From positions 1-33,197 of the forward strand of contig JADFPE010000017.1 in NCBI GenBank assembly GCA_022562495.1: 33,197 nt of DNA. Reading direction: 5' to 3'. Source of the DNA: Acidobacteriota bacterium. Its GTDB lineage: Bacteria > Acidobacteriota > Vicinamibacteria > Vicinamibacterales > UBA8438. Each line of letters starts with the position of its first letter. Position 1 is the stretch's first letter. Below are positions 13,078-32,975 of the stretch, piece after piece. Below the pieces are notes generated by a model. It did no database searches. It was given only the letters and a program-made list of their open reading frames with translations, and was not told where the DNA came from. The translations under genes and the position numbers were made by a program.

Positions 13078-13120
13078 GGTTGTGTCGGTGCTCTACGTGC
13101 GAACGCGTGACGGACCGCCC

Positions 13121-13648
13121 CTACTCGACCGTGATGGAGATCGTCGTGCACAGGCCTTCCTGCGTCCGGTGCTCGTCGTCCCCAATCTGCAACGTCAGCG
13201 TGTGCTGCCCCGCCGGCAGCAACGTCTCGTATATCTTGGACCCGTCACCAAAGTGCACCCATGGATCGGCCTTCGGAATCTCCGCGCCGACCGGCAGGCA
13301 CTCGGTGTCGATGGCCACGTGATGATGGCCCATCCCCTCCCGCGGCGACTCGACCTCGGATGGCACCGGCGAGATGTTCAGATTCGACACGATGAACTCC
13401 ATCGCCACCGGGCTCGACACGGTCGCGCCGTCGGCCGGCGTCACGAACGACACCGACGGGGTCGTCGACGACCGATCCTCCATGGTGTCCGCCGACGCCG
13501 CAGCCGTCGGCTCCTCGACCATCGGCTCCTCGGCCATCGGCTCCGAATCCGCCTCGGGTGCGCCGCCTCCACAGGCGACGAGCCCTGTCGCCAGCATCAA
13601 CGCCAGCACGCCGGTCCACCCCTGCAATCCAGTCTTTACCGTTCTCAT
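13121..13648 (-). CDS. DUF4399 lipoprotein
   Basis: This is a 175-residue predicted lipoprotein. The signal peptide ends in the lipobox LVAC with Cys26, followed by a long acidic Ala/Glu/Pro linker (about 30-60). The rest is a DUF4399 domain: SFVTPADGATVSSP, the histidine-rich GMGHHHVAIDT, the segment VHFGDGS and a final LPAGQHTLTLQIGDDEH. The fold is probably an immunoglobulin-like beta sandwich (inference). The function is unknown; the HHH cluster could bind metal. ATG at 13648 has AGGAGGAG upstream. It lies 58 bases after the acyl-activating gene and 43 bases before the aldehyde dehydrogenase. A membrane-anchored partner between these two catalytic genes is odd and may only share their transcript. 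Confidence 0.88.
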   Translation of the reverse strand: MRTVKTGLQGWTGVLALMLATGLVACGGGAPEADSEPMAEEPMVEEPTAAASADTMEDRSSTTPSVSFVTPADGATVSSPVAMEFIVSNLNISPVPSEVESPREGMGHHHVAIDTECLPVGAEIPKADPWVHFGDGSKIYETLLPAGQHTLTLQIGDDEHRTQEGLCTTISITVE

Positions 13649-13706
13649 GGTGTTGTCTCCTCCTATGTTTCACGTTCTGCGGGCCGCCCGTCACCATCGG
13701 TAGCCC

Positions 13707-18591: not shown

Positions 18592-20316
18592 TTACGCTTT
18601 CCCGGCGACGTAGCCTTCCTTCTCCAGATGCAGGATGATCTGCTGCGCTGCTTCTTCCGCGGTCAGATCGGCGGTGTCGATGGTGATCTCCGCGTCCTCC
18701 GGCGCCTCGTACGGATCCGAGATCCCGGTGAACTCCTTGATGATCCCGGCGCGCGCCTTGGCGTAGAGCCCTTTGCGATCCCGCTGCTCGCACACCTCGA
18801 GCGACGTGGCGACGTGGACGATCATGAACCCGCCGAGCGGCGCGATCATGGCGCGCACCTGCTTGCGGACGGCGTCGAACGGCGCGATCGGCGCACAGAT
18901 GGCAACCCCGCCGTTCTTGGTGATTTCGGAGGCGACATACCCGATCCGCCGGATGTTGATGTCGCGGTGCTCACGCGAGAACCCGAGCTCGGACGACAGG
19001 TTCTTGCGCACCAGGTCACCATCGAGCAGGGTCACGGGCCGGCCGCCCATCTCGAGCAGCTTGACCAGCAGCACGTTGGCGATCGTCGACTTACCCGACC
19101 CGGACAGCCCCGTGAACAGCAGCGTGAACCCCTGCAAGTGCCGGGGCGGATGGCTCCGCTTCAGCTCCTCGGCGACGGTCGGGAAGGTAAACCAGTCCGG
19201 AATCTCCTTCCCCTGGGCCAACCGGTCGCGCAGCTCGGTGCCTGACAGATTCAGCGTCCGTTTCCCTTCGGGCACCTCGTCGATCGGCATGTACGTGGCG
19301 GTGTCCTCGACGAACACCATCAGCTTGAACGGCACCATCGCGACACCGAGCTCCGTCTCGTGTGTGCGCAACAGCTCTTGCGCGTCGTACGGGCCGTAGA
19401 AGGGGGTGCCGCTCGAGTCGCTGCCCGGACCCGCATGGTCGCGACCCACGATCAGATGGGTACACCCGTGGTTCTTCCGGATGATCGCGTGCCACACCGC
19501 CTCGCGCGGACCGCCCATGCGCATCGCCAGCGGCAGCAGCGAGAGCATTGCGGTTTTCTGCGGATAGCGCGGCAACAACGCCTCGTAGCAGCGCACCCGG
19601 GTGTAGTGGTCGACATCGCCCGGCTTCGTCATGCCGACGACCGGGTGAATCAGCAGGTTCGCCTCGACCTCCTTGGAGGCGCGAAGCGTCAGCTCCTGAT
19701 GCGCCCGGTGCATCGGGTTTCGGGTCTGGAACGCGACCACCTTGGTCCACCCCAGCTTGGCGAACGTCGCCCGCAACTCGGCCGGCGTGTGTCGCAACTC
19801 CTTGTAGTCGTAATGTGAGACCGGCTGCAGTCCCTCGAGCCGACCGCCGACGTAGACCGACCCGGTGCGGTCGAGCAGATGCGCCACGCCGGGGTGCTCG
19901 TGGTTCGTGGTGCCGAACACCGCCTGGGCCTCCGCCTCGCGGTCCGGGCGCCACACGTCCTCGACGTGGAGCACGCCCAGCATGACGCCCTCGGCGTCGC
20001 GCAGCGCCAGGTGTGACCCGGTCGACAGCTTGTCCGCCGTCGCGTCCGGGATGTCGAGCATGATTGGAATCGGCCACAGCGTGCCGTCCGCGAGCCGCAT
20101 GTCGGCACAGACCGCGTCATGGTCTCTGGAGGTCATGAACCCGGTCAGCGGGGAGAACCCGCCGTTCAGCAGCAGCTCGAGATCGCAGAGCTGACGCGGG
20201 GTGACGTCGTGCGACACCCAGTCGCGCGACTCCGCCGTGATCTCCTCGGCGCGGGCCGAGCCGGCAAGCAGTTCGACGAGCGTCCCGCCGTGCGGGGCAA
20301 TGAGATGGTCTGACAA
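18592..20316 (-). CDS. Bifunctional sulfate adenylyltransferase / adenylylsulfate kinase
   Basis: This is a 574-residue fusion that turns sulfate into APS and then PAPS. The N-terminal ATP sulfurylase has QTRNPMHRAH (197-206) and GRDHAGPG (291-298). The C-terminal APS kinase has the P-loop GLSGSGKST (403-411), then DLVRKNLSSELGFSREHRDIN and the lid region DRKGLYAKARAG. This Sat-CysC order is known from single-chain enzymes in several phyla. I chose TTG at 20316 because AAGGAG lies eight bases upstream and the homologous region begins there; a longer frame to 20415 reads through non-conserved sequence. It precedes DUF4202, and CysQ lies upstream on the same strand. Its PAPS can feed the nearby sulfotransferase or reduction via APS. 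Confidence 0.96.
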   Translation of the reverse strand: MSDHLIAPHGGTLVELLAGSARAEEITAESRDWVSHDVTPRQLCDLELLLNGGFSPLTGFMTSRDHDAVCADMRLADGTLWPIPIMLDIPDATADKLSTGSHLALRDAEGVMLGVLHVEDVWRPDREAEAQAVFGTTNHEHPGVAHLLDRTGSVYVGGRLEGLQPVSHYDYKELRHTPAELRATFAKLGWTKVVAFQTRNPMHRAHQELTLRASKEVEANLLIHPVVGMTKPGDVDHYTRVRCYEALLPRYPQKTAMLSLLPLAMRMGGPREAVWHAIIRKNHGCTHLIVGRDHAGPGSDSSGTPFYGPYDAQELLRTHETELGVAMVPFKLMVFVEDTATYMPIDEVPEGKRTLNLSGTELRDRLAQGKEIPDWFTFPTVAEELKRSHPPRHLQGFTLLFTGLSGSGKSTIANVLLVKLLEMGGRPVTLLDGDLVRKNLSSELGFSREHRDINIRRIGYVASEITKNGGVAICAPIAPFDAVRKQVRAMIAPLGGFMIVHVATSLEVCEQRDRKGLYAKARAGIIKEFTGISDPYEAPEDAEITIDTADLTAEEAAQQIILHLEKEGYVAGKA

Positions 20317-20454
20317 CGTGATGACTCCTTGGCAATCCTGGCGGACCGAAGCAGCAGGTCCCGGTCTCCGGTGACGTATGAAGGATGGGCGAAACGGTGG
20401 AACCCGGACGAGCACGCCCGAGCCGTGCTGACAAGCGCTTCAATCTATCACGAT

Positions 20455-20587: not shown

Positions 20588-21409
20588 TCAGGTCCCCTGC
20601 TGACTCCGGCCGTCTGCCGTCTGACTTCTTTCGTCATCCGGCAACGCATACGTCCCTGGTTTGAGCCCGATGACGAAGTTCGGGTTCTTCAACGATGGCT
20701 TGTTGTAGCGGAGCGTCCCCGGGTGGGGCTCGGGATACCCGGAATTACGATACACACAGTCGCCGGCGGCCACGTCCCACTCCATCGTCGGGCCGAGCCG
20801 CGGGTAGACGTCGGCGCGGCCGTCGGCCACCAGGCAGAACTTCAGGGAGCTACCGCTCTTGACCCGTTCGGCGATCGTGAACTGAGCGAGAAACCTGTCG
20901 AGGGCCGGGCTGGGGTGCGACCGGCTCTCCACGATACGCAGCGGCTCGGACGGGTCGGACAGGGTCGACCGGAGTCGTTGCGGCTGCCCGTCGCCCGCCC
21001 GCTTCCAGGCGCCCTCTCCCGCCCGCGCAAAGTACAGCAGGCCGGTCGCGGGCGCGACCACGACGCCGAGCACTGGCTCGCCCGCCTCGATCATGGCGAT
21101 GTTCACGGTGAACTCGTCAGTCCGCTTGAGAAATTCCTTGGTCCCGTCGAGCGGGTCGACGAGCCAGTAGCGCGACCACGCCCGCCGCACGTCGTAGGCC
21201 GGCAGCTCGTGCTCCTCGGACAGATACGGGATCGTGGGGTCCAGCCGCAGCAACCCGTCCCGGATGATCGCCTCCGCTGCCAGGTCCACGCCGGTCACCG
21301 GCGACCCGTCCGGTTTCTCCCTCACCCAGGTGTCCCGGGCCCGGTAGTGCCTCAGCACCACCTCCCCGGCACGCAGCGCCACCTCGTTGACCGCATCGAT
21401 CGTCACCAT
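20588..21409 (-). CDS. cysQ: 3'(2'),5'-bisphosphate nucleotidase
   Basis: This 273-residue enzyme of the inositol-monophosphatase superfamily hydrolyses PAP (and possibly PAPS), removing the inhibitory product of sulfotransferases. Metal-binding motifs are SEEHE (64-68), DPLDGTKEF (85-93) and EWDVAAGD near residue 215, as expected for CysQ. I chose ATG at 21409; longer frames would overlap the divergent sulfotransferase promoter. There is no clear ribosome site. A TTGCGG/TACACT pair upstream would place the transcript start three or four bases before the ATG. The last dozen residues (SQTADGRSQQG) are encoded by a CTTCTGACT-type tandem repeat, so the original C-terminus has probably been extended by repeat DNA. 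Confidence 0.94.
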   Translation of the reverse strand: MVTIDAVNEVALRAGEVVLRHYRARDTWVREKPDGSPVTGVDLAAEAIIRDGLLRLDPTIPYLSEEHELPAYDVRRAWSRYWLVDPLDGTKEFLKRTDEFTVNIAMIEAGEPVLGVVVAPATGLLYFARAGEGAWKRAGDGQPQRLRSTLSDPSEPLRIVESRSHPSPALDRFLAQFTIAERVKSGSSLKFCLVADGRADVYPRLGPTMEWDVAAGDCVYRNSGYPEPHPGTLRYNKPSLKNPNFVIGLKPGTYALPDDERSQTADGRSQQGT

Positions 21410-21419
21410 CGCGAGGCGC

Positions 21420-21449
21420 AGTGTAACGCCCGACCCTGATGAGCCGCAA
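21420..21449 (-). promoter_or_regulatory. Promoter-like pair for cysQ
   Basis: On the minus strand TTGCGG (21449-21444) and TACACT (21425-21420) are 18 bases apart, matching sigma-70 at four positions each. The implied start lies a few bases before the cysQ ATG. It is an inference from consensus only. Confidence 0.4.
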
Positions 21450-21470
21450 ATTGCCGGCGCCCGTGACGCC

Positions 21471-21499
21471 TTGACGCTCACTGGCCCATCGACTCAAAT
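21471..21499 (+). promoter_or_regulatory. Promoter-like pair for the sulfotransferase gene
   Basis: TTGACG (21471-21476) and TCAAAT (21494-21499) are separated by 17 bases. Transcription would begin at about 21506, directly at the GTG at 21507 used as start, which implies a leaderless message. The -35 is good (five of six); the -10 is moderate (four of six). Confidence 0.4.
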
Positions 21500-21506
21500 A
21501 GCTGCC

Positions 21507-22133
21507 GTGGCAGGGTTGCTGCACCGTCTCTTCGGTCGTGGGACGCCAGGTGTCGAGCAGTCGGTGGTCATCGTCTCGGGGCTGCCGCGCTCCGGGACGT
21601 CGATGCTGATGGGCATGCTCGCGGCCGGCGGGCTCGAAACGGTGGTCGACGGCATCCGCGAGGCGGATGACGACAATCCGAAGGGCTACCACGAGCTGGA
21701 ACTGGTCAAGGAGCTTGACAAGGGTGGGGACACGTCGTGGCTCGACGATGCACGCGGGAAGTGCCTGAAGGTCATCTCATTCCTCCTCCAGCACCTGCCG
21801 TCGACCCACCACTACAAGATCGTGTTCGTCCGGCGCAGCCTCCAGGAAGTGCTGGCGTCCCAGCGCACGATGCTCGAGCGCCGCGGCGAGTCGGGTGGCG
21901 ACGCCAGCGACGAGGAGATGGCGAAGATGTTCGCCGCCCACCTCACAAAGACGGAACGCCAGCTCGCCGCCCGGCCCAACTGCGAAGTGCTCTACGTCGA
22001 CCACCGCGCGACGCTGAACACCCCGCGCGAGGTGGCCGCCCAGGTCAGCCGGTTCCTCGGCGACCGCCTGGATGTCGAGAAGATGACCGCGGTGGTCGAC
22101 CAGCAGCTCTACCGCAACCGCACCACCCACTAG
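21507..22133 (+). CDS. Sulfotransferase family protein
   Basis: This 208-residue PAPS-dependent sulfotransferase-like protein carries the 5'-phosphosulfate loop GLPRSGTS (25-32). A 3'-phosphate-type segment VRRSLQEVLASQR (108-120) follows. The substrate pocket region is short, so the protein is at the small end of the family. It probably transfers sulfate from PAPS to a hydroxyl or amine of an unknown acceptor. It is divergent from cysQ and close to Sat-CysC, so the locus makes PAPS, uses it and clears PAP. The start is uncertain: GTG at 21507 fits a promoter just upstream; an open frame back to 21387 would overlap the start of cysQ. The TAG stop lies within the CTAG of a repeat element. Confidence 0.88.
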   Translation: MAGLLHRLFGRGTPGVEQSVVIVSGLPRSGTSMLMGMLAAGGLETVVDGIREADDDNPKGYHELELVKELDKGGDTSWLDDARGKCLKVISFLLQHLPSTHHYKIVFVRRSLQEVLASQRTMLERRGESGGDASDEEMAKMFAAHLTKTERQLAARPNCEVLYVDHRATLNTPREVAAQVSRFLGDRLDVEKMTAVVDQQLYRNRTTH

Positions 22134-22313: not shown

Positions 22314-24461
22314 GTGCGCCGACTGCTCTTTGCAAGCAGCCTTCTGGTCGGCGGTCTCCTGTCGACGCCCACGCCGGCCGAGGCCTATGTCGGCCCCGGC
22401 GCCGGCTTCGCGTTCGTCTCCTCGCTCTTCATCCTCCTGTTCACGATGGCCCTGGCAGTCGTGACACTGCTGACCTGGCCGATCCGCCTGGCCGTGCAGA
22501 AGATTCGCGGCAACCGGGCGCTGGCGGCCAGCCGGGTGAAACGCGTGATCGTGCTGGGGCTCGACGGGCAGGACCCGGAGCTGACCGAGCAGCTGATGGA
22601 CGAAGGCGTGCTGCCCAACTTCTCCAGGCTACGCCAACAAGGCAGCTTTCACCGACTGCGGACCACGCTGCTCGCCGAGTCGCCGGTCGCCTGGACGTCG
22701 TTCCAGACCGGCTGCAACCCGGGCAAGCACCGGATCTTCGACTTCCTGGTACCGAATCGGAAGTCACACCTCCCAGAGCTGTGCTCGGCGCGGGTGGCGC
22801 CGCCCAAACGGTCGCTGCCGCTGGGACCGTTCCGCATCCCCCTTGGCAAACCGCTGATCGAGGCGGGCCGGCGCAGCCAGCCCTTCTGGAAGATCCTTGG
22901 CGACCACGGCATCGTCAGCTCGATCCTGCGGGTGCCGATCACGTTCCCGGCCGAGAAATTCAACGGCACCCTGCTCTGCGCAATGAGCGTGCCGGACCTC
23001 AAGGGCAGTCAGGGCACGTACAGCTACTTCAGCAGCGACACCGCCGAGCGGCTCACGCTGACAAGCGGCGACCGGGTGCCGATCGAGTGGATGAACGGAG
23101 TGGCGCAGGGCGTCATCGCAGGGCCCGAGAACAGCCTGCGCAAGGATGGCGCCGAACTGCGGCTGCCCTTCGAGGTCCGCGCCGGTGCGAACGGCCATGC
23201 CGAGCTGCACCTCGACGGCGTGGTCCATCCGCTGAAACGGCGTGAGTACACCCCATGGATCACACTCGATTTCAAGGTGGGACTCGGGATGACGGTCACC
23301 GGCATCGTGCGGTTCTACCTGATCGAGACCACGCCGCATCTGAAGCTCTATATGACGCCGATCAACATCGACCCCGATCGACCGGCGTTGCCGATCTCGC
23401 ACCCGTTCACCTATGCGGTGTATCTGTCGAAGACCCAGGGACGCTTCGCGACACTCGGGCTAGCCGAGGACACCTCGGCGCTGAACGAGGGGGTCGTCGA
23501 TGAGGACGCCTTCCTCCAGCAGACCTATCTCATCCATGCGGAACGGGAACGGATGTTCTTCGACGCCCTCGACAAGACGTCGCGCGGCGCGGTGGTCTGC
23601 GTGTTCGACATCACCGACCGGCTGCAGCACATGTTCTTCCGACATCTCGACGAGCGACACCCGGCCAACCGGGGGCGCACGACGAAGCACAAGGACGCGA
23701 TCCGGAAGCTCTACATCGAGATGGACGCGCTGGTCGGTCGCACGCTGGAGGCGGTCGACGATGACACGGTACTGCTCGTCATGTCGGACCACGGGTTCAA
23801 GCCGTTCCGGCGTGGCGTCAATCTCAACACCTGGCTCTATCAGCACGGCTTCCTCGCGGTGACGGGGGACCGGCCGACCGGCGCCGACATGTTCGGCGAT
23901 GTCGACTGGTCGCGCACGAAGGCCTACGCCGTCGGCTTCGGCGGCATCTACCTGAACCTGCAGGGCCGCGAAACCGGGGGGATCGTGACGCCGGGTGATG
24001 ACGCGGATCAGGTGAGGCGGGAGATTCGCGATGGCCTGCGCGCCCTGGTCGACGAGGTGGAGAAGGTACAGCCGGTGCGCGAGGTCTACGACGCCAGGCA
24101 GGTCTACTCGGGCCCCTATGTGGCGGACGCGCCGGACCTGATTGTCGGGTTCCGGCCAGGCCACCGCGTCGGGTGGGCGTCGGTGACCGGCGGCATCAGT
24201 GACGAGGTGATCGAGGACAACACCCGCTATTGGAGCGGCGACCACAACTTCAACCCACCGGACGTGCCCGGCATGTTGTTCTCGAACCGCCCGATCGCCT
24301 CCGACGCTCCCGGCATCATGGACATCGGCCCGACGGTGCTCGACCTGTTCGGTGTCGCGATCCCCGCCTACTGCGATGGGCAGTCGCTGCTGCCGGCACC
24401 AGCGGCCAGCACCGGCGGCTCGCCGGTCGGCACCGGAACCGCGGGGACGGCGGCGTCATGA
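22314..24461 (+). CDS. Alkaline-phosphatase-superfamily (type I phosphodiesterase-like) membrane protein
   Basis: This protein of about 715 residues has an N-terminal signal-like helix (LLFASSLLVGGLL, ending PAEA before YVGPGAGF). A second hydrophobic segment follows (FVSSLFILLFTMALAVVTLLTW), so it is likely membrane-anchored with the enzyme domain after residue 75. The metal-site pattern of nucleotide-pyrophosphatase/phosphodiesterases is present: LGLDG (Asp84), ESPVAWTSFQTG with likely nucleophile Ser123, SDHGF (Asp492, His493) and SGDHN (His644). The substrate is unknown; phospho- or sulfo-esters of lipids or sugars are possible. I chose GTG at 22314 because it gives a clean signal peptide; an ATG at 22224 inside the repeat is also open. 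The stop overlaps the next gene (ATGA), indicating coupling. Confidence 0.85.
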   Translation: MRRLLFASSLLVGGLLSTPTPAEAYVGPGAGFAFVSSLFILLFTMALAVVTLLTWPIRLAVQKIRGNRALAASRVKRVIVLGLDGQDPELTEQLMDEGVLPNFSRLRQQGSFHRLRTTLLAESPVAWTSFQTGCNPGKHRIFDFLVPNRKSHLPELCSARVAPPKRSLPLGPFRIPLGKPLIEAGRRSQPFWKILGDHGIVSSILRVPITFPAEKFNGTLLCAMSVPDLKGSQGTYSYFSSDTAERLTLTSGDRVPIEWMNGVAQGVIAGPENSLRKDGAELRLPFEVRAGANGHAELHLDGVVHPLKRREYTPWITLDFKVGLGMTVTGIVRFYLIETTPHLKLYMTPINIDPDRPALPISHPFTYAVYLSKTQGRFATLGLAEDTSALNEGVVDEDAFLQQTYLIHAERERMFFDALDKTSRGAVVCVFDITDRLQHMFFRHLDERHPANRGRTTKHKDAIRKLYIEMDALVGRTLEAVDDDTVLLVMSDHGFKPFRRGVNLNTWLYQHGFLAVTGDRPTGADMFGDVDWSRTKAYAVGFGGIYLNLQGRETGGIVTPGDDADQVRREIRDGLRALVDEVEKVQPVREVYDARQVYSGPYVADAPDLIVGFRPGHRVGWASVTGGISDEVIEDNTRYWSGDHNFNPPDVPGMLFSNRPIASDAPGIMDIGPTVLDLFGVAIPAYCDGQSLLPAPAASTGGSPVGTGTAGTAAS

Positions 24462-26461
24462 GACGTGGGGCCCGCCGGGTCGGTCCGATCGCACTCCTTG
24501 CCCTGACTCTCGGGGCCGCCGGTTGCGACAGTGGCGCCGGCGGCAAGAAGGTGATCATCCTCGGCATCGACGGCATGGATCACGCGATGCTCGAGGCGTT
24601 CATCGCCGAGGGCCGGCTCCCCCACTTCGCGCGACTCGCCCGGGAGGGAGACTTCTCGCCGCTCCAGACGACGATGCCGCCGCTCAGCCCGGTGGCCTGG
24701 TCCACCTTCATCACCGGCATGGACCCGGGCGGGCACGGCATCTTCGACTTCCTGCATCGAGACCCCGAGACGATGCAACCGGTGGAACCGTTCTACACCA
24801 TCGGCCCTGTGGGCCGCAGCCTCACCCTCGGCTCCTGGGTGTTACCGCTGTCGGGCGGCGACCTCGGGCTGTATCGCCGCGGGCAGGCGTGGTGGGATCT
24901 GCTCGACGCCGCCGGCATCGAGACGACGATCTTCCGGATGCCGGTCAACTTCCCACCGGTCGAGACCGGCGGCCGCTCATTCGCCGGCATGGGCACACCG
25001 GACATCCTGGGTGGGCACGGCACCTATTCGTTCTTCACCGACTACCCGCCAGACGACATGGCGGCCATGACCGGTCGCATCGAGCTCGTCGAGGTGATCA
25101 ACTACCGGGTCGACGCCCAGCTGCACGGCCCACCCAACGCGTTCAGGCGCCTGCGGGTGAACTCCGGTGGCTTCGGCGGCGGCGACGTCGAGTACGAGAA
25201 CCCGGATCTCGTGGTGGACTTCGAGGTGCTGCTCGACCCCGACGCACCGGTGGCGAAGATCGTGGTCCAGGATACCGAGCTGGTGCTGAACGAAGGCGAG
25301 TGGAGCGACTGGGTCCGTATCGATTTCGAAGCGGTCCCCTTCCTCGTCGAGATCAGCGCGATCGGGCGCTTCTATCTGCAGGAAGTACGACCCGACTTCA
25401 AGCTATATGTCAGCCCGCTGCAGCTCAACCCGGAGGACCCAGCCATGCCGCTCTCGAACCCAGAGAGCTGGTCGGCCGACCTCTTCGACGCGCTGGGCCC
25501 GTTCTACACCCAGGAGCTGCCTGAAGACACGAAAGCGTTCACCGAAGGGATCTTCGATGGAGCCGAGTTCTGGGAGCAGTCGCAGTTCGTCTTCGGCGAG
25601 CGCCGGCGCGCGCTGGACCACTTCCTCGACACCTTCGAGGAGGGACTCCTGTTCTTCTACTTCTCGAGTGTCGACCAGGGCTCGCACATGCTGTACCACT
25701 TCGCCGACCCCGAGCACCCGCTTCACGAGCCGGACGAGCTGCTGCGGAACGGCATCCGCATGCTCTACGAAGAGATGGACGAGGCGCTTGGACGCGTGCT
25801 GGAGGTGGTAGACGAGGACACGACGCTCATCGTCATGTCGGACCACGGCTTCGCCCCGTTCTATTGGGGCGTCAACCTGAACACCTGGCTGCTCGAACAA
25901 GGCTACGTCACGCTGAAAGACCCGTCGCTGCAAGGCCGATCTCCGTTGTTCGTCAACGTGGACTGGTCCGGGACGCGCGCCTACGCGTTCGGGCTGAGCG
26001 GACTGTACGTCAACCTGCGCGGCCGGGAGCGTGACGGCATCGTCGAGCCGGGCGCGGAGTATGAGCGGCTGCTCGACGACCTCGAGCGCGATCTGCTGGC
26101 CATGCTCGACGACCGGACCGGAGCCAACCCGGTCAGCCTGGTCTACCGGACCTCCGAACGGTTCGTCGGCCCGCACCTGGATCGGGGTCCCGACATCATC
26201 GTCGGCTACAGCCGCGGCTATCGCAGCTCGTGGGAGAACCCGCTCGGCGAGTTCCCGAGAGAGGTCATCGTCGAGAACGACGCCCCGTGGAGCGGCGACC
26301 ACCAGAACGACTACAGGCTCGTACCGGGGGTGCTGCTGACGAACCAGCGGATCACGCTGGACGCGCCGGCCTTGTACGACCTCACCGTCGCGGTGCTCGA
26401 CGAGTTCGGGGTCGCGCCGCTACCGGAGATGATCGGGGAGGATACGCTTGCACCGCGCTGA
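24458..26461 (+). CDS. Alkaline-phosphatase-superfamily lipoprotein, paralogue of the preceding gene
   Basis: This 667-residue predicted lipoprotein has a signal peptide ending in GAAGC (Cys23). The catalytic domain matches the upstream protein along its length: LGIDGMDHAML (Asp38), LSPVAWSTFITG (likely nucleophile Ser77), MSDHGFAPFYWGVNLNTWL (Asp462, His463) and SGDHQ (His615). Shared blocks such as RGVNLNTWL/WGVNLNTWL and GIYLNLQGRE/GLYVNLRGRE show that the pair arose by duplication. It lacks the second membrane helix of its neighbour, so the two enzymes are anchored differently. ATG at 24458 overlaps the previous stop by four bases. A ribbon-helix-helix-like small gene and an Oxa1/EMC3-like gene follow on the same strand. 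The substrate is not deducible. Confidence 0.9.
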   Translation: MRRGARRVGPIALLALTLGAAGCDSGAGGKKVIILGIDGMDHAMLEAFIAEGRLPHFARLAREGDFSPLQTTMPPLSPVAWSTFITGMDPGGHGIFDFLHRDPETMQPVEPFYTIGPVGRSLTLGSWVLPLSGGDLGLYRRGQAWWDLLDAAGIETTIFRMPVNFPPVETGGRSFAGMGTPDILGGHGTYSFFTDYPPDDMAAMTGRIELVEVINYRVDAQLHGPPNAFRRLRVNSGGFGGGDVEYENPDLVVDFEVLLDPDAPVAKIVVQDTELVLNEGEWSDWVRIDFEAVPFLVEISAIGRFYLQEVRPDFKLYVSPLQLNPEDPAMPLSNPESWSADLFDALGPFYTQELPEDTKAFTEGIFDGAEFWEQSQFVFGERRRALDHFLDTFEEGLLFFYFSSVDQGSHMLYHFADPEHPLHEPDELLRNGIRMLYEEMDEALGRVLEVVDEDTTLIVMSDHGFAPFYWGVNLNTWLLEQGYVTLKDPSLQGRSPLFVNVDWSGTRAYAFGLSGLYVNLRGRERDGIVEPGAEYERLLDDLERDLLAMLDDRTGANPVSLVYRTSERFVGPHLDRGPDIIVGYSRGYRSSWENPLGEFPREVIVENDAPWSGDHQNDYRLVPGVLLTNQRITLDAPALYDLTVAVLDEFGVAPLPEMIGEDTLAPR

Positions 26462-26477
26462 CGCGCGGCGACCGATC

Positions 26478-26507
26478 GGCGTCGGGCGTCGGGCGTCGGG
26501 CGCTCGG
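26478..26507 (+). repeat. GGCGTCG tandem repeat
   Basis: Three perfect heptamers GGCGTCG (26478-26498) plus a degenerate fourth lie in the 108-base gap after the second phosphodiesterase-like gene. Confidence 0.7.
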
Positions 26508-26530
26508 AAAACGCTTTCGACGAGCGGGGG

Positions 26531-26557
26531 CCGTCTGCCTTCTGACTTCTGAGAGCA
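26531..26557 (+). repeat. CTTCTGA-type repeat upstream of the small RHH-like gene
   Basis: It reads CCGTCTGCCTTCTGACTTCT followed by GAGAGCA, ending 13 bases before the ATG at 26570. The end CTTCTGAGAGC is repeated in the same place before the next gene (see 26938-26976). Confidence 0.6.
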
Positions 26558-26569
26558 CCCGAGGCAATC

Positions 26570-26761
26570 ATGTTCGGATCCAAGGTAAAGATCGACACGG
26601 CGCTGCTCGAGAAGGCGACCCGTTATGCGGAGATCGCCGGCTACTCGACGGTCGAGGAGTTCATCAACCACGCGCTCGAGAAGGAGATCTCGCAGCTCGA
26701 AGGCGCCGACTCCGAGGAGGAGATCAAGAAGCGTCTCAAGGGGCTGGGGTATATCTCTTGA
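26570..26761 (+). CDS. Small ribbon-helix-helix-like protein
   Basis: This 63-residue protein begins with a strand (SKVKID) and continues with two helices separated by a turn (TALLEKATRYAEIAGY, then TVEEFINHALEKEIS), the layout of ribbon-helix-helix DNA-binding dimers. An acidic linker (GADSEEE) and the tail IKKRLKGLGYIS follow. That tail resembles the LxxLGYI ending of many bacterial sulfatases. It could therefore be a regulator or a small adaptor of the neighbouring enzymes. ATG at 26570 has GAGG six bases upstream. It lies 108 bases after the second phosphodiesterase-like gene and 223 bases before the membrane gene; both gaps are filled with tandem repeats. The fold call is by pattern, with no known function. 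Confidence 0.72.
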   Translation: MFGSKVKIDTALLEKATRYAEIAGYSTVEEFINHALEKEISQLEGADSEEEIKKRLKGLGYIS

Positions 26762-26772
26762 GTCAGCGCATT

Positions 26773-26797
26773 CAGCAGTCAGCAGTCAGCAGTCAGA
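26773..26797 (+). repeat. CAGCAGT tandem repeat
   Basis: Three perfect heptamers CAGCAGT plus CAGA. On the opposite strand this is CTGACTGCTG-type sequence, related to the CTTCTGA repeats nearby. It lies in the 223-base gap 26762-26984, where I see no gene. Confidence 0.65.
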
Positions 26798-26937
26798 CGC
26801 GGGCAGAAGGGCTTCGCCATCATCACGGTCCGTCTCGGCCCGCTCCTCTCCATCGGTGCAAAAGCGTCGTCGTCGGACGGCCCATCCTGGTTAGCGCGCC
26901 GTCGACTGATTCGAAGTTGGCGAAGCCGTCGGGCTTT

Positions 26938-26976
26938 CTTCTGCCTTCTGCCTCCGGACTTCTGCCTTCTGAGAGC
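26938..26976 (+). repeat. CTTCTGC/CTTCTGA repeat upstream of the Oxa1/EMC3-like gene
   Basis: Successive units CTTCTGC, CTTCTGC, CTCCGGA, CTTCTGC, CTTCTGA end in GAGAGC nine bases before the ATG at 26985. This is the same terminal block and nearly the same spacing as before the gene at 26570. Confidence 0.65.
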
Positions 26977-26984
26977 GAACGTTC

Positions 26985-27818
26985 ATGGTAGCGATCGTCA
27001 ACGCGATCAACGTCGTCCTGACACCGGTCTTCGACCTGATCTGCTGGCCATTCCGCGCGCTGGCGCCGATGTGGGCGCTGACGGCCATCTCGCTCGCCTC
27101 CGGCGTCCTGCTGGTCTGGCTGTTCGGGAAGACCTCCGACCAGAAACGCATCCGGGAAATCCGCGACCGCATCCGAGGCAACCTGATCGGAGTGCGGCTG
27201 TTTCAACACGACATCGGCGTCGTCCTGGCCCTGCAAGGCAGGATCTTCGGCGACACGTTCCGGTTCATGGGTCTGGCGCTCGTGCCCATGCTGATCATGA
27301 TCGTGCCGGTCACGCTGGTCATGACCCAGCTCAACCTGCGGTTCGCGGTCCGGCCGCTCGAAGCCGGCGAGTCGGTCCTCGTCAAGGCGCTGGTGTGGGA
27401 TGTGGCTGCGCTCGACCAACCGATCACGCTCGACGTGCCGGACGGCGTGACGGTGGAAACGCCGCCGGTGCGGATCCGGTCGACCCGCGAGATCGCCTGG
27501 CGTCTCCGTGTGGACCGTCCGGGCGACCACGCGCTGGTCGTGCGCATCGGCGACGAGACCCTCGAGAAGCGGCTCGTCGGCGGCACCCGGTGGGGTCCGG
27601 TCGTCCAGCGGCGAACCGGGCGCGGCCTGGTCGACACGCTGCTCTATCCGGGCGAGCCGCCGATCGCGGCCGGTCACAGCGTCGAGGCGGTCGAGATCAT
27701 CTACCCGCCACTCGAGCTCCGCATGCTCGGCATCGACGTAGACTGGCTCATCGCCTTCCTCGTGCTCTCGATGGTGTTCGGTTTTGCTTTCAAAGGAGTC
27801 CTGGGCGTCGAGGTGTGA
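26985..27818 (+). CDS. Membrane protein, tentatively Oxa1/EMC3-superfamily-like
   Basis: This 277-residue membrane protein has a hydrophobic N-terminus (IVNAINVVLTPVFDLICWPFRAL), a helix at about 28-48, a charged segment TSDQKRIREIRDRIRGN, then FRFMGLALVPMLIMIVPVTLVM (about 92-113). A soluble beta-rich region follows (120-250) and a last helix LIAFLVLSMVFGFAFKGVLG. The pattern of DQKRI-rich coiled coil, RLFQHDIGVVLALQ, ALVPMLIMIVP and RPLEAGE recalls the EMC3/DUF106 branch of the Oxa1/YidC insertases. It is not a canonical YidC, and this is a pattern-level call. ATG at 26985 follows a GAGAG motif. As the last of four co-oriented genes with two phosphodiesterase-like proteins it may help place or assemble them in the membrane (inference). 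Confidence 0.85.
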   Translation: MVAIVNAINVVLTPVFDLICWPFRALAPMWALTAISLASGVLLVWLFGKTSDQKRIREIRDRIRGNLIGVRLFQHDIGVVLALQGRIFGDTFRFMGLALVPMLIMIVPVTLVMTQLNLRFAVRPLEAGESVLVKALVWDVAALDQPITLDVPDGVTVETPPVRIRSTREIAWRLRVDRPGDHALVVRIGDETLEKRLVGGTRWGPVVQRRTGRGLVDTLLYPGEPPIAAGHSVEAVEIIYPPLELRMLGIDVDWLIAFLVLSMVFGFAFKGVLGVEV

Positions 27819-28043
27819 TGCCCCGGCCGGCGAGCGGGACTGCGGACCCGAACACCGGGCCACTCGGCTCAGCGCAGCAGCAGGTTGTTCGCTTGTCGCG
27901 GTCCGCTCGTTTCTAGATAGCAGCACCGTCGCCGGCATGGCATGCCGATCTGGCGCCCAGTACCGCAGGTCTCAAGCAAGCTCTGCGTGAGTCGTCGCTC
28001 TCGAGGCGGTGTGGGGACCGAACCCGACACAGAGGGGGAACTC

Positions 28044-29687
28044 ATGGCGAAGAACATCGTGCTCTGTTCGGATGGCACCGGGAACAAGGGTGGCTCCGGG
28101 TCGAACACCAATGTCTTCAAGATCTACAACGCGGTCAGGATCAACGACCTTGATCTCAGGGAGGAGCGGCGACAGGTCGTCTTCTATGACAACGGCGTCG
28201 GCACCTCCAAGAGCAAACTCGGCAAGGTACTCGGTGGTGCATTCGGTTGGGGCTTCCGTCAGAACGTGCGAGACCTCTACGAGTTTCTGGGCCGTCACTA
28301 TACCCACGGGGACCACATCTACATCTTTGGATTCAGTCGCGGCGCCGCCACTGTCCGGGCCTTCGCGGGGATGCTTCAACACTGCGGCCTCGTCATCAAG
28401 AATCCCCTTGACAAGCAGGACAAGCTCTATCGCAAAGAAGACGTGCTCGATGAGAAGCCCTTTCAGGATCGCATCGATGCCGCCATGCAGCACTATGTCG
28501 ACAGTGGAGGCAAACCGTCGGTCGCAGGGTTTTTCAAGGCCCTGGGTAGACTCTTCAAGAACGCTCCCAAGTTCAAGAACGAGCCAGAGGTCGAGATCGA
28601 GTTCATGGGAGTCTGGGACACCGTCGCCGCCCTTGGCGCCCCACAGATCCCGATTCTCGACGCGGTTCTGAATCTGCTCCGGCGACACCAGTTCTACAAC
28701 TACGAACCTGCGAGCTGCGTGAAGAACGTCTATCACGCCCTGGCGGTCGACGATGAGCGCGGAACATTCTGGCCGCTGGTGTGGAACGAAGCAGAGTTCA
28801 CGGGCGAAACGATTGAACAGGTGTGGTTCTCGGGAATGCACGCGAATATCGGTGGAGGATATCCCCGGGACGAGCTGGCGAACGTCACACTCGATTGGAT
28901 GATCGAGAAGCTCAACGAACATGGTGAGGCGCTGCGGGCCCGGCTGAGAGCCTCCCCGGGGGACACCAGCGCGCCCGCGGGGCTCCTGCTAAAGTCCACG
29001 GCGATGGCGGACGCGAAAGCCGACGCGAATCCACACGGAAAACTGCACGACTCGCGCGGCGGGTTCAAGATCTTCTATCGCTATCAGCCTCGTCCTATCC
29101 AGGACCGATGCGTTGAGAAGAAGGCCAAGATTCGCCTTCACACGTCGGTCCTCGATCGCATGGAGATGAGGACGGCCGGATATACACCAGGGAATCTGCC
29201 TGAGCCCGGGCAACTCGAGGTGGTCTTCACGGGCCCGGAGAATTTCCCCTCCTCCCCCAAGGCAGAGCAGCGCGCCGAGTACACCCGTGTTCGGGCCGGG
29301 CTTGCCCGTCTGAGGAAAAGCCGAATCATGTTGTACTGGACGTTCCTGTTGAGCACGGCGACTTTGGTTGGGGCGTCCGGTTTCGCGTGGCTGTTTCGGC
29401 CAGAGCTCTCACCTCCTGATTGTTGCTCACAGTCGGCCCTGTCAGCGAACGAGACATGGCGCGTAATGCACTGGTGGCTGGCACATCTCGAAGACGCTCT
29501 GCGCTATATCCTGCCGACGTTCTTTGACAACGCCATCACGTACCTCGTCATTCAGCATCCGGCGCGGCTTCTTGTCCTGGTCGTCTATGGTTTCGCACTG
29601 TTGCTCCTGCGCATGCTTTTTCAGAGCGCGATGGAAACACGAGAGGAACACGCACGAATCGAGATGCTCGCCGCACTGGGCCGATGA
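28044..29687 (+). CDS. DUF2235 (Tle1-like) alpha/beta hydrolase with C-terminal membrane helices
   Basis: This 547-residue protein has an N-terminal DUF2235 domain, the fold of type VI secretion phospholipases Tle1 and related hydrolases: KNIVLCSDGTGNK at the start, IFGFSRGAATVRAF with nucleophile Ser98, FMGVWDTVAALG with a likely Asp, and VWFSGMHANIGGGY with a likely His. After residue 425 come two hydrophobic segments (IMLYWTFLLSTATLVGASGFAWLF and LLVLVVYGFALLLLRMLF), so it is probably membrane-bound. A lipid ester is a plausible substrate. ATG at 28044 has a strong GAGGGGGA site. Codon use looks less GC-biased than that of its neighbours, hinting at transfer. No VgrG or immunity gene is seen. 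The 225-base gap before it holds no recognisable gene. Confidence 0.9.
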   Translation: MAKNIVLCSDGTGNKGGSGSNTNVFKIYNAVRINDLDLREERRQVVFYDNGVGTSKSKLGKVLGGAFGWGFRQNVRDLYEFLGRHYTHGDHIYIFGFSRGAATVRAFAGMLQHCGLVIKNPLDKQDKLYRKEDVLDEKPFQDRIDAAMQHYVDSGGKPSVAGFFKALGRLFKNAPKFKNEPEVEIEFMGVWDTVAALGAPQIPILDAVLNLLRRHQFYNYEPASCVKNVYHALAVDDERGTFWPLVWNEAEFTGETIEQVWFSGMHANIGGGYPRDELANVTLDWMIEKLNEHGEALRARLRASPGDTSAPAGLLLKSTAMADAKADANPHGKLHDSRGGFKIFYRYQPRPIQDRCVEKKAKIRLHTSVLDRMEMRTAGYTPGNLPEPGQLEVVFTGPENFPSSPKAEQRAEYTRVRAGLARLRKSRIMLYWTFLLSTATLVGASGFAWLFRPELSPPDCCSQSALSANETWRVMHWWLAHLEDALRYILPTFFDNAITYLVIQHPARLLVLVVYGFALLLLRMLFQSAMETREEHARIEMLAALGR

Positions 29688-30269
29688 GCAGCCGGGGCGT
29701 GAGACGGCGCCGCCAACCCCGGCTCGCCGTACCGGCGGTGCGGACCGGCGGCGCCGCCACACCCGTACCTCCTCCCGTGCACCGATTCATCGCCCTTGTG
29801 GCGTTGCTGGCCGGGTGCGCCGGCGCCCCGGAACCGCCCGCAACGCGACGGCTCATCGACCTCGTCGCAGGGCGTCGGTCGAGATCCGCGGCACCCCGTC
29901 CCCCACGGCTCCACCGCGCACGCTGGCGCTTCGACGACCCGGACGGCGATGACGAGCCGCTGGCCGGCTGGATGAACGAGGGCGGTGTCGCCGAGCTGGA
30001 CATTCGTGACGGCCGGCTGAGGGGCGAGACGACCGCCGTGTCGGCGATCGTGTTTGTCGTGTGGCACGACGAGCTGGACCTGCGTGACCGGCTGCATGCG
30101 GTCGACATCGAGCCGCGGGTCTCCGACGGCACGACCCTCGCAGTGGAAGTCTGTGGTGGCGCCGATCTGGACCTCGACAACGCACACGCCGACGAATCCT
30201 GGGCGCTGTCGGCCGACGTGCTCGAGCAGCGGCGCAGCCCGGGCTATCGGCGGGAGCGTGTGAAAGCGC

Positions 30270-30299
30270 TTGACGAGTCGCACCCCCGCGGGGTACAAC
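30270..30299 (+). promoter_or_regulatory. Sigma-70-like promoter of the cysteine-leader / sulfate-assimilation operon
   Basis: TTGACG (30270-30275, five of six matches) and TACAAC (30294-30299, four of six including the key first two bases) are 18 bases apart. The expected start, seven bases past the -10, is at about 30306. This is exactly a GTG in frame with the poly-Cys ORF, so the leader would be translated from a leaderless message. If the start were further upstream, the ATG at 30300 with GCGGGG before it could be used. Confidence 0.6.
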
Positions 30300-30389
30300 A
30301 TGAGCGTGTTGATCCTCCGCGTGCGAGCCTGCTGTTGCTGTTGTACGGTGGCCCTCTGGGCCCCCGAGCTGACGGTCGCGACGCGCTAG
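30300..30389 (+). CDS. Poly-cysteine leader peptide of a sulfate-assimilation attenuator
   Basis: This is a 29-codon ORF (ATG 30300; in-frame GTG 30306 gives 27) whose codons 11-15 are TGC TGT TGC TGT TGT, five cysteines in a row inside RVRACCCCCTV. Three of the five are TGT, unfavoured in such GC-rich DNA. Cysteine-poor cells would stall ribosomes here. Immediately after the Cys codons lies GGCCC-TCT-GGGCC (30350-30362), a perfect 5-bp hairpin. The codons themselves (TGTTGT, GGT) can pair with ACC and ACAACA at 30392-30400. CTCTGGGC (30354-30361) is partly complementary to the 5' arm of the terminator at 30433, a possible antiterminator. The ORF is out of frame with the broken lipoprotein gene that surrounds it. 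No similar length of Cys codons occurs elsewhere in the window. Confidence 0.72.
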   Translation: MSVLILRVRACCCCCTVALWAPELTVATR

Positions 30390-30432
30390 GTACCACAACA
30401 CCAGACTGACAGGAACGGCGCGAGAGACCAGA

Positions 30433-30503: not shown

Positions 30504-30776
30504 ATGTTCGAAGAATCGGTGAAGCGCTCGGCGTTCAAGGCGATCTCGTGGCGCGTCCTCGCCACGTTGACCACGGCGCTGGTGGTCTACTTCATCACGG
30601 GCAGCACCGAATTCGCCGTGACGATCGGGCTGATCGAGGGCATCGCGAAGATCGGGCTGTACTATTTCCATGAGCGGCTCTGGAACCGGCTCGACGTCGG
30701 ACGCCGACCGGGCGGCCACCCAGCCGACGCCGCCACCGAACCGGCGCTGCCGTCGCCGAGCCAGGAACACGAATGA
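30504..30776 (+). CDS. DUF2061 domain-containing membrane protein
   Basis: This 90-residue protein has two hydrophobic segments and the DUF2061 core: KRSAFKAISWRVLATLTTALVVYFITGS, then IGLIEGIAKIGLYYFHERLW. It is probably a small inner-membrane protein. DUF2061 often occurs beside sulfate-assimilation genes, and here it is the first gene after the attenuator. Its TGA overlaps the cysH ATG by four bases. A role in sulfate or sulfite handling is inferred from context only; no function is established. ATG at 30504 has AAGG five bases upstream and GGAG slightly further away. A Pro/Ala/Glu-rich tail follows the conserved part. Confidence 0.9.
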   Translation: MFEESVKRSAFKAISWRVLATLTTALVVYFITGSTEFAVTIGLIEGIAKIGLYYFHERLWNRLDVGRRPGGHPADAATEPALPSPSQEHE

Positions 30777-31522
30777 CGCACACGCTGACTCGCCCCGAGA
30801 CGACACAGCTGGCTGAATCGGGCCGCGCGCTCGACACGGCGACCCCGCTCGAGATCCTGCGGTGGGCCGCCGACCGGTTCGGGTCACGGCTGACCTTCGC
30901 GACCGGGTTCGGCGCGGAGGGCTGCGTGTTGATCGACCTGATCGGGCGGCATCGTCTTCCGGTCGACATCTTCACGCTCGATACGGGGCTCCTGTTTCCG
31001 GAGACCTACGATCTCTGGCGGCGTCTCGAGCAACGATACGCGCTCACGATCCGCGATGTCCGTCCCGAGCGCACCGTCGACGAGCAGGCCGCGACGCACG
31101 GCGCAGAGCTCTGGACCCGCCACGCGGATCAGTGTTGCGAGATGCGCAAAGTCAGCCCGCTCGCGGCGGAGCTCAGCGGGTTCGACGCGTGGATCACCGC
31201 CATCCGGCGGGACCAGACCGCCGGCCGCGCCGACGCGCTCGCGGTCGAATGGGACCCCAAGTTCGGTCTTGGCAAGGTGAACCCGCTCGTCCGCTGGACC
31301 AAGAAGGAGGTCTGGTCTCATCTGCTCCGGAACGACGTGCCGTACAACCCGCTGCACGACCGCGGGTACCCGAGCATCGGATGTGTGCCCTGCACCAGCA
31401 CCGTGGCCGCGGGCGAGGACGACCGGGCGGGCCGCTGGCGTGGCGCGCCCAAGACCGAGTGCGGTCTTCATGCGCCGATGGTCGCCGCGCCACACGAGGC
31501 GAACGCCGGTCCGAGCGCCTGA
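30773..31522 (+). CDS. cysH: Thioredoxin-dependent adenylylsulfate (APS) reductase
   Basis: This 249-residue enzyme reduces activated sulfate to sulfite. It carries the four cysteines that bind a [4Fe-4S] cluster in APS reductases, Cys121-Cys122 (DQCCEMRKV) and Cys204/Cys207 (GCVPCTS). The catalytic Cys230 is in KTECGLH. The PP-loop-type nucleotide site starts near FATGFGAEG. The CC...CxxC set indicates APS rather than PAPS as substrate, so the kinase half of Sat-CysC is not needed for this branch. ATG overlaps the DUF2061 stop (ATGA). Electrons come from thioredoxin. The next genes supply siroheme, the cofactor of the sulfite reductase that would follow in the pathway. Confidence 0.96.
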   Translation: MTHTLTRPETTQLAESGRALDTATPLEILRWAADRFGSRLTFATGFGAEGCVLIDLIGRHRLPVDIFTLDTGLLFPETYDLWRRLEQRYALTIRDVRPERTVDEQAATHGAELWTRHADQCCEMRKVSPLAAELSGFDAWITAIRRDQTAGRADALAVEWDPKFGLGKVNPLVRWTKKEVWSHLLRNDVPYNPLHDRGYPSIGCVPCTSTVAAGEDDRAGRWRGAPKTECGLHAPMVAAPHEANAGPSA

Positions 31523-31567: not shown

Positions 31568-32140
31568 ATGAGCGCCGCTGCACATCTGTTCCCGGTGTTC
31601 CTGAAGCTGGCCGACCGTGCCGTCGTCATCGTCGGGGGCGGATCGGACGCAACCGCCAAGCTGAGCGCCGTGCTCGATGCCGGCGCCAGGGTCACCGTGG
31701 TCGCACCTGAGGTAACGCCGGAGATCGCCGGGAGCGGGGTGACGATACACCGCCGCCCCTTCGAGGCGTCCGACCTCGACGACGCGTGGCTGGCCGTGGC
31801 GGCCGCGCCACGCGCGGTCAACCGCGCCGTGGCGACGGCGGCCGAGACCCGGCGGGTCTTCGTCAATGCCGTGGACGACCCGGCGAACGCCAGCGTCTAT
31901 CTCGGAGGCGTGGTGCGGCGCGGCGGCGTGACGGTAGCGATTTCGACAGACGGCCGGGCGCCCGCGCTCGCCGGGCTGATCCGCCAGGCGCTCGAGAGGC
32001 TGCTGCCCGAGGAGGAGGTGGAGCGGTGGATGTCGGTCGCCCGGGACCAGCGCGCCGCGTGGGTCGCCACCGGCGTGCCGATCGATCAGCGGCGCCCGTT
32101 GCTCTTGCGCGCGCTGGCCGGTCTCTACGAAGATCGGTAG
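31568..32140 (+). CDS. Precorrin-2 dehydrogenase / sirohydrochlorin ferrochelatase
   Basis: This 190-residue protein corresponds to the N-terminal half of CysG (Met8-like). It oxidises precorrin-2 to sirohydrochlorin with NAD and inserts iron to give siroheme. The NAD loop reads VVIVGGGSDATAKL (19-32). Further conserved segments are VFVNAVDDPANASVYLGGVV, with the likely catalytic Asp, and VTVAISTDGRAPALAGLIRQALE. ATG at 31568 has GGGAG eight bases upstream. It follows cysH by 45 bases and precedes the SUMT gene by 13, so siroheme synthesis is split into two proteins instead of the fused CysG of enterobacteria. Confidence 0.94.
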   Translation: MSAAAHLFPVFLKLADRAVVIVGGGSDATAKLSAVLDAGARVTVVAPEVTPEIAGSGVTIHRRPFEASDLDDAWLAVAAAPRAVNRAVATAAETRRVFVNAVDDPANASVYLGGVVRRGGVTVAISTDGRAPALAGLIRQALERLLPEEEVERWMSVARDQRAAWVATGVPIDQRRPLLLRALAGLYEDR

Positions 32141-32153
32141 GCAGGCATCCGTG

Positions 32154-32975
32154 ATGACCAAGGGATTCGTCTCGCTCGTCGGCGCCGGCCCGGGCCACCC
32201 GGATCTGCTGACCGTGCAGGCGCTCGACCGCCTGCGGGCGGCCGACCTGGTGCTCTATGACGCGCTGGTCACCCCCGAGGTGGTCGCCCTCGCCGAGCGA
32301 GCGCAACGGTTCTTCGTGGGCAAGCGCGCCGGCCGCAAGTCGGTGCGTCAGGAGACGATCACCCGGGTCATGGTGCGGGCCGCGCGCCGGGGACGCCGTG
32401 TGGTCCGGCTGAAGTGCGGCGACCCGTATGTGCTCGGCCGCGGAGGCGAGGAAGCGATGGCGCTCCGAGCAGCCGGTGTCCCGTTCGAGGTGGTGCAGGG
32501 GCTCACGACGGCGGTTGCCGTGCCGGCGCTGGCCGGGATCCCGGTCACACACCGCGGTCTGGCCTCCGGGTTTGTCGTCGTCTCGGGGCACGACGAGTCG
32601 AGCTTCAGACCGATTCTGGGCTCGCTCGACCCGGGGACGCTGACGGTGATCGTACTGATGGGGCTGGCGCACCGCGGTGCGGTCGCGGCCTGTCTGATCG
32701 AGCGCGGGTGGCCATCCGAGACGGCCACCGCGGTTGTGTTCGCGGCGTCGACACCACGCGCGCGCACGTGGGTCGGCACCCTGGGACACCTGGGGACGGC
32801 CCCGGGCGCGACCGATGCCAACGAACCCGGCACGATCGTCATCGGGGACGTCGTCGATCTGCACGCGGTGCTCGCAGTCGGTGGTGACACCCCGCATCGC
32901 ATCGAGACCCCGCGCGAGACCCGCAGCGCGTGGCCAGTAGCAGGTGTGACGAAGGAGCAGATTGGCCGTCTGTGA
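32154..32975 (+). CDS. cobA: Uroporphyrinogen-III C-methyltransferase (SUMT)
   Basis: This 273-residue SAM-dependent enzyme methylates uroporphyrinogen III at C2 and C7 to precorrin-2, the substrate of the preceding gene product. Family motifs are VGAGPGHPDLLT (9-20), LKCGDPYVLGRGGEE near 83-97 and the VVQGLTTAVAVPALAGIPVTHRG region. ATG at 32154 is used; a GTG directly before it is also possible, with AGGCAGG upstream in either case. The last dozen residues (AGVTKEQIGRL) lie beyond the usual end of the family and run up to the repeat-rich gap, as in cysQ. It is the last gene of the attenuated sulfur operon in this window. Confidence 0.95.
   Translation: MTKGFVSLVGAGPGHPDLLTVQALDRLRAADLVLYDALVTPEVVALAERAQRFFVGKRAGRKSVRQETITRVMVRAARRGRRVVRLKCGDPYVLGRGGEEAMALRAAGVPFEVVQGLTTAVAVPALAGIPVTHRGLASGFVVVSGHDESSFRPILGSLDPGTLTVIVLMGLAHRGAVAACLIERGWPSETATAVVFAASTPRARTWVGTLGHLGTAPGATDANEPGTIVIGDVVDLHAVLAVGGDTPHRIETPRETRSAWPVAGVTKEQIGRL

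Follow-up and report, generated by a model that had tools for sequence, protein, structure and literature searches.

The cassette and its conservation

The window analysed here is a stretch of 33,197 nucleotides from the fragmentary genome of an acidobacterial bacterium (contig JADFPE010000017.1, positions 1 to 33,197 of the forward strand), whose near relatives are titled Acidobacteria or Vicinamibacterales. Within it lies a cassette of four open reading frames (ORFs), all on the + strand together with a sulfotransferase gene (ST) directly upstream: PDE1 (22314..24461) and PDE2 (24458..26461) encode paralogous AlkP-superfamily phosphodiesterases, S63 (26570..26761) encodes a protein of 63 residues, and M277 (26985..27818) encodes a membrane protein assigned by profile and model to the Oxa1 superfamily. 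The two phosphodiesterase genes overlap by ATGA at 24458-24461, where the stop codon of PDE1 runs into the ATG of PDE2, confirming the coupling proposed in a preliminary description of this DNA.

To assess how constantly the genes travel together, an S63 profile was scanned over 84,980 species genomes, yielding 234 relatives, of which the best 80 underlie the locus counts given here; a locus is called testable where its flank is long enough. M277 lay alongside S63 in all 74 testable loci, PDE1 in 57 of 58 and PDE2 in 65 of 69, and all four genes were retained in two loci where their order is permuted (L142 and L146). Co-occurrence in relatives had been named beforehand as a test of the cassette, and a second sample of 297 acidobacterial genomes with a completeness of at least 90% agrees with the outcome: all 76 genomes with a real M277 also hold S63, a 77th match (G070) covering only the Ig-like part of M277 within a 1592-residue frame, and in the six genomes with S63 alone the matches are weak paralogues. 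Among 60 relatives of the window genome (16 S63-positive, 44 negative), S63 and M277 were each found in 15-16, and the two sets of genomes differ only by G023, where a contig end cuts the M277 gene. The co-occurrence of S63 and M277 is thus far above chance.

The best 80 records are titled by their depositors as Acidobacteria, Verrucomicrobia, Gemmatimonadetes, Sumerlaeota, Omnitrophota, Schekmanbacteria and Aminicenantes, so that PDE1-PDE2-S63-M277 forms a deeply conserved unit in genomes titled from several phyla. Such titles can mislead in at least one case, a locus titled 'Cyanobacteria' (L123), which corresponds to G051, a genome of the window's own order. Of the neighbourhood comparison first suggested, across Acidobacteria and Planctomycetes, the acidobacterial half bore out the linkage, which extends to the other titles; planctomycete titles are absent among these 80 loci. 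Comparison of 32 loci found no flanking gene kept across phyla beyond the sulfotransferase and sulfate-activation genes. We rejected a viral origin of S63, as viral contigs contained no relative of it. The system appears new, with every part belonging to a known superfamily, and a search of open-access papers found nothing on the cassette or on the C-terminal tail of S63 described below. A constant module under titles from several phyla, two of whose conserved proteins go unnamed by Pfam and NCBIfam, points to a basic envelope process that has seemingly gone unstudied.

Phosphodiesterases and membrane protein

Against the Pfam and NCBIfam models, both large enzymes match PF01663 well above its cut-off of 23 bits (PDE1, 87.9 bits, 1.3e-24; PDE2, 109.6 bits, 3.2e-31), and both retain a complete metal site, comprising D84, D435, H439, D492, H493 and H644 in PDE1 and D38, D406, H410, D462, H463 and H615 in PDE2, each 99-100% conserved among 61 and 69 homologues, respectively. 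The putative nucleophile, a serine, is conserved in 95-97% of the same homologues. The initial view of the pair as paralogues with intact metal-site motifs is therefore upheld. A sulfatase identity (PF00884, formylglycine) was rejected, as the two proteins score 13.1 and 16.3 bits against a cut-off of 25 and their active-site segment reads SPVAW, not C/S-x-P-x-R. The pair shares its fold family and two-metal site with the AlkP-superfamily type I phosphodiesterases and nucleotide pyrophosphatases, but differs from them in being paralogous partners predicted to lie on opposite membrane faces, and phmmer found no close solved structure for PDE2 or for P460, an AlkP subfamily considered below.

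The two enzymes also differ in their anchors, as first described. PDE1 begins with a signal-peptide-like segment, followed by the motif AYVGPGAG (AY[IV]GPGAG; 22383-22406) and a hydrophobic, putative transmembrane (TM) segment; GPGAG occupies this position in 61/61 homologues, and no mention of IGPGAG was found in the open-access literature. Because basic residues follow the TM segment (net charge averaging +4.4 over 30 residues in the 61 homologues), the positive-inside rule makes a catalytic domain on the cytoplasmic side more likely than one in the envelope. PDE2 has a lipobox ending ...LGAAGC, whose cysteine is Cys23. Most of its homologues share a lipobox, whereas a few (L065, L096 and L126) carry a twin-arginine translocation (Tat)-like motif and others a plain, Sec-type signal; PDE2 is therefore predicted to be exported, with a periplasmic catalytic domain. 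The earlier characterization of the cassette as an envelope system is refined accordingly for the catalytic domain of PDE1.

M277 alone has no significant match in Pfam or NCBIfam. A profile of 45 homologues, however, matched MJ0480, the archaeal YidC of M. jannaschii (5C8J), with an E-value of 4.7e-11 over TM1, the hairpin and TM2, and its last TM aligned to MJ0480 in order as a second stretch that is not significant on its own; EMC3_TMCO1 (PF01956) was matched by 8 of the 45 homologues (best 3.8e-7). These matches bear out the insertase resemblance noted at the outset. The AlphaFold2 model (predicted local distance difference test score, pLDDT, 95), computed as a single chain like all models here, has a three-TM core with a cytoplasmic helical hairpin (helices 28-50, 53-72, 77-120 and 254-268) and a beta domain at ~125-250. 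This immunoglobulin (Ig)-like, putatively extracytoplasmic domain (27348..27734, +; modelled strands 130-252) is inserted between TM2 and TM3, and Foldseek searches with M277 returned only Ig-like domains, including filamin. It sits at h4h5, the most variable position of Oxa1 proteins (PMC8675477).

Taken together, profile and model place M277, with its inserted Ig-like domain, in the archaeal YidC/EMC3/TMCO1 branch of the Oxa1 superfamily as a bacterial representative. It has in common with archaeal YidC (MJ0480/Ylp1, DUF106), EMC3 and TMCO1 the three core helices and the hairpin, and like archaeal YidC as described in PMC8675477 it has a polar residue in H1 and an interfacial Trp at the start of H5. 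It differs in being bacterial, in having an Ig-like domain of ~130 residues where the hypervariable h4h5 element lies and in occurring in addition to YidC; the members that PMC8675477 and PMC8887752 count in this branch are archaeal and eukaryotic only. Neither M277 nor its homologues matched 60KD_IMP (PF02096) by hmmscan, which excludes a canonical bacterial YidC, and PF02096 is itself found in 14 of 16 M277 genomes, so that M277 is an additional Oxa1-superfamily protein and its role as a YidC replacement was rejected. The match is absent from the window's own genome and from one relative (G011), both highly fragmented assemblies. If the assignment is correct, bacteria would hold, beside YidC, a specialised Oxa1 protein of the EMC3/TMCO1 type, a point relevant to the diversification of the superfamily.

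M277 might instead be an insertase or chaperone devoted to the system's own membrane proteins, such as PDE1 with its unusual N-terminal hairpin, in which case the phosphodiesterases would be its clients and the sulfotransferase link incidental. Superfamily membership by profile, the presence of canonical YidC in 14 of 16 M277 genomes, which would leave M277 free to specialise, and the N-terminus of PDE1 (signal-like segment, AYIGPGAG and TM), kept in 61/61 homologues, all fit such a role. We nevertheless regard it as improbable, since it leaves S63, the tail that S63 shares with other enzymes and the recurrent sulfate-activation genes unexplained; furthermore, insertase activity is putative, and the Ig-like domain occupies the position of the h4h5 element of YidC.

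The S63 protein and its C-terminal tail

Like M277, S63 alone has no significant Pfam or NCBIfam match, and its profile found only chance matches in the PDB (calmodulin, designed proteins). The AlphaFold2 model (pLDDT 92) shows an extended N-terminus and helices at 10-23 and 28-41, the strand-helix-helix arrangement of the ribbon-helix-helix (RHH) family in residues 1-41, followed by a third helix at 49-59. Foldseek placed NikR first (root mean square deviation 1.6 over 42 residues, probability 0.99, E 0.33), then ParD, Arc and FitA, the weak E-values reflecting how tiny the protein is, and Pfam RHH_1 was matched by 17 of 44 homologues (best 3.3e-4). The RHH-like fold suggested for the small protein thus withstood the structure check. 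Beyond the core lies a C-terminal helix and tail (residues 47-63, DSEEEIKKRLKGLGYIS; 26708..26758, +), ending in ...EEEIKKRLKGLGYIS, in which L56, G58, L59, G60 and Y61 are invariant and the GLGYIS end is near-invariant across the 44 homologues. On sequence and model, S63 is best described as an RHH protein with an LGYI tail. One locus (L144, 6187-6642, -) has tandem S63 genes between PDE2 and M277, of which one encodes a tailed RHH and the other an RHH lacking the LGY tail; this arrangement suggests possible heterodimers.

The tail had been called sulfatase-like, and it does occur on sulfatases; however, it is not peculiar to these and S63, being found also on APS (adenosine 5'-phosphosulfate) kinases and on one phosphodiesterase subfamily. 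A DNA pattern for the tail (L..LGY[ILVMF]x-stop) gave 29 matches outside S63 among the 16 relatives that hold S63 and 6 among the 44 that lack it, against 16 matches of a reversed control pattern in all 60. Most of the tail matches read out form the C-terminal end (LRSLGYxR) of a large ORF resembling a sulfatase, and several of these ORFs have lipoprotein-like signals. On one contig (L163; G039, C298), three separate large ORFs end LRALGYVR, LKSLGYVR and LRSLGYLR. The window itself has an ORF (29684-30409, +) matching only the N-terminal part of a ~800-residue sulfatase-like lipoprotein of L018 (G002) that ends LRSLGYLR; relative to that locus, ~2 kb are missing, including the catalytic part and the tail.

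Three forms of APS kinase were found, one with the canonical end, one, represented by many enzymes, with the tail added and one with an RHH-like domain plus the tail, this last fusion occurring in nine genomes of three families (L197-L204, L206). Reading the tail as the mere canonical C-terminus of APS kinase was rejected, since solved enzymes end ~22-27 residues short of the 200-residue tailed enzyme, at its residue 173-178, and untailed APS kinases occur in related genomes. Elsewhere in the phylum, other RHH proteins ending LGYF, LGYL or LGYID lie beside soluble AlkP-type phosphodiesterases or sulfate-activation genes.

Among AlkP enzymes, the tail ends neither PDE1 (0/61) nor PDE2 (0/69), and in the P460 subfamily its cis and trans occurrences are complementary. 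P460 carries its own tail in 3 of 31 loci (L159, L167 and L168), none of which has an RHH-plus-tail neighbour in the DNA examined, whereas among the 28 loci with tail-less P460 an RHH-plus-tail gene lies within 1.5 kb in 23, and a further two have just a tailed APS kinase (Fisher p ~0.01 for the cis/trans contrast, calculated by hand and ignoring relatedness). Given that S63 is always tailed and PDE1 and PDE2 never are, and given the cis/trans pattern of P460, the most economical interpretation is a tail that would bind AlkP-fold enzymes, or the assembly they form, whether attached in cis or provided in trans; S63 would supply it to PDE1 and PDE2. A short C-terminal peptide that moves between enzymes of a single pathway, whether as part of the enzyme, on a separate protein or joined to an RHH domain, is a candidate docking code for a sulfate-activation metabolon.

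The serious rival to such an adaptor role is that S63 is an ordinary RHH repressor autoregulating its operon, with the tail sensing the partner enzyme as the C-terminal segment of ParD or FitA binds its toxin, so that enzyme level or state would be fed back to transcription. The nearest structures (NikR, ParD, Arc and FitA), the weak matches to Pfam RHH_1 or PSK_trans_fac in many homologues, the basic K5 and K7 at the strand and the constant location of the small RHH gene within the operon all speak for it, and S63 resembles the RHH (CopG/Arc/MetJ) regulators and antitoxins in its core, its small size and a C-terminal extension with a possible role in partner binding. The tail of S63, in contrast, is a short, near-invariant end common to enzymes, and S63 is constantly partnered with AlkP enzymes and M277. 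The RHH-plus-tail fusion to APS kinase in nine genomes better fits enzyme assembly, and the tail occurs without an RHH domain on APS kinases and P460 phosphodiesterases. Autoregulation therefore seems unlikely to us, if less so than the insertase role of M277.

Sulfation-related surroundings and a proposed assembly

The gene directly upstream of PDE1, ST (21387..22133, +; Sulfotransfer_3, PF13469, 5.2e-8), encodes a small soluble sulfotransferase. Divergent from it lie a 3'(2'),5'-bisphosphate nucleotidase, CysQ (20588..21481, -; TIGR01331, 5.4e-79), for the removal of PAP (3'-phosphoadenosine 5'-phosphate), and a bifunctional ATP sulfurylase/APS kinase (18592..20415, -; NF004040, 1.9e-276) for the synthesis of PAPS (3'-phosphoadenosine 5'-phosphosulfate). 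A sulfotransferase was found near the cassette in 46 of the 58 loci that could be tested, 34 times on the opposite strand, making it a fifth, usually present partner and lending support to the link with the upstream gene that had been suspected. A conservative search found PAPS-pathway genes in 13 of the 80 loci. One operon (L121) runs RHH+tail - Sat - CysC - PDE - PDE1 - PDE2 - S63 - M277, and another operon (L139) runs RHH+tail - PDE - sulfotransferase-like ORF - CysC - PHP-type ORF - PDE - sulfatase-like ORF, with the sulfotransferase-like, PHP-type and sulfatase-like ORFs named by reading the sequence. The surroundings thus resemble PAPS-dependent sulfation clusters (Sat/CysC, sulfotransferase and PAP phosphatase) in the sulfotransferase near most loci and the PAPS genes near some, though no sulfation cluster found in the open-access literature includes the AlkP pair, S63 and M277. 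In six loci lacking a nearby sulfotransferase (L065, L096, L114, L121, L122 and L126), an extra soluble AlkP-type phosphodiesterase of ~430 residues lies immediately upstream of PDE1.

The nearby sulfotransferase and PAPS genes suggest that the cassette handles a sulfated molecule, probably one linked to a lipid or glycan. The phosphodiesterases might, on another account, be broad nucleotide pyrophosphatases/phosphodiesterases that scavenge phosphate or nucleotides or clear APS, PAPS or PAP, their neighbourhood reflecting general sulfur or phosphorus metabolism and not the making of a sulfated envelope molecule. PF01663 does include nucleotide pyrophosphatases, and the window contains further ORFs that read as sulfate assimilation and are kept in relatives (CysH-like, 30773-31522; siroheme-type, 31568-32975). 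Yet the recurrent partner is a sulfotransferase (46/58), not just assimilation genes, the flanking genes are not conserved outside the window's family in the 32 loci compared, and scavenging would have no need of a dedicated membrane protein and adaptor; we accordingly give this account little credence.

We propose instead, tentatively and with slightly less than even confidence, that the cassette encodes a sulfation-linked inner-membrane phosphodiesterase complex, with S63 and M277 as the components that hold it together. The sulfotransferase would use PAPS in the cytoplasm. PDE1 would be anchored so that its catalytic domain faces the cytoplasm, and PDE2 would act in the periplasm as a lipoprotein or otherwise exported enzyme, both being metal-dependent. 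The two may act on one lipid- or glycan-linked product, PDE1 ahead of its passage across the membrane and PDE2 afterwards. M277, with its cytoplasmic helical hairpin and periplasmic Ig-like domain, would connect them as a platform in the membrane and might also be the conduit. S63 would be a cytoplasmic RHH-dimer adaptor and not primarily a transcription factor, its LGYI tail docking onto tail-less AlkP enzymes, sulfate-activating enzymes or both. With the topology as predicted, intact paralogues on opposite faces, an Oxa1-type protein and a cytoplasmic adaptor would form a coherent trans-membrane assembly. More doubtful is the further-reaching possibility of a trans-membrane sulfation machine, in which a mobile RHH and LGYI-tail adaptor gathers sulfate-activating and AlkP-fold enzymes on an EMC3/TMCO1-type Oxa1 protein joining PDE1 to PDE2.

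Several observations weigh against this proposal. A nearby sulfotransferase is missing in 12 of the 58 testable loci, and PDE2 is missing between PDE1 and S63 in four. The RHH is usually a DNA-binding fold, and the would-be beta strand of S63 carries the basic residues K5 and K7. Since exported sulfatases carry LGY tails as well, a single docking partner in the cytosol cannot account for every tail. Finally, the topology of PDE1 is predicted from charge bias, and the models are of single chains.

Directly after M277 lies a gene for a hydrolase resembling Tle1 of type VI secretion systems (28041-29687, +; PF09994, 9.2e-75), seen in closest relatives only. Of two ORFs at 11656-14795 (-), one reads as an acyl reductase and the other as AMP-ligase-like; the latter also occurs beside three cassettes of other families (L078, L093 and L102).

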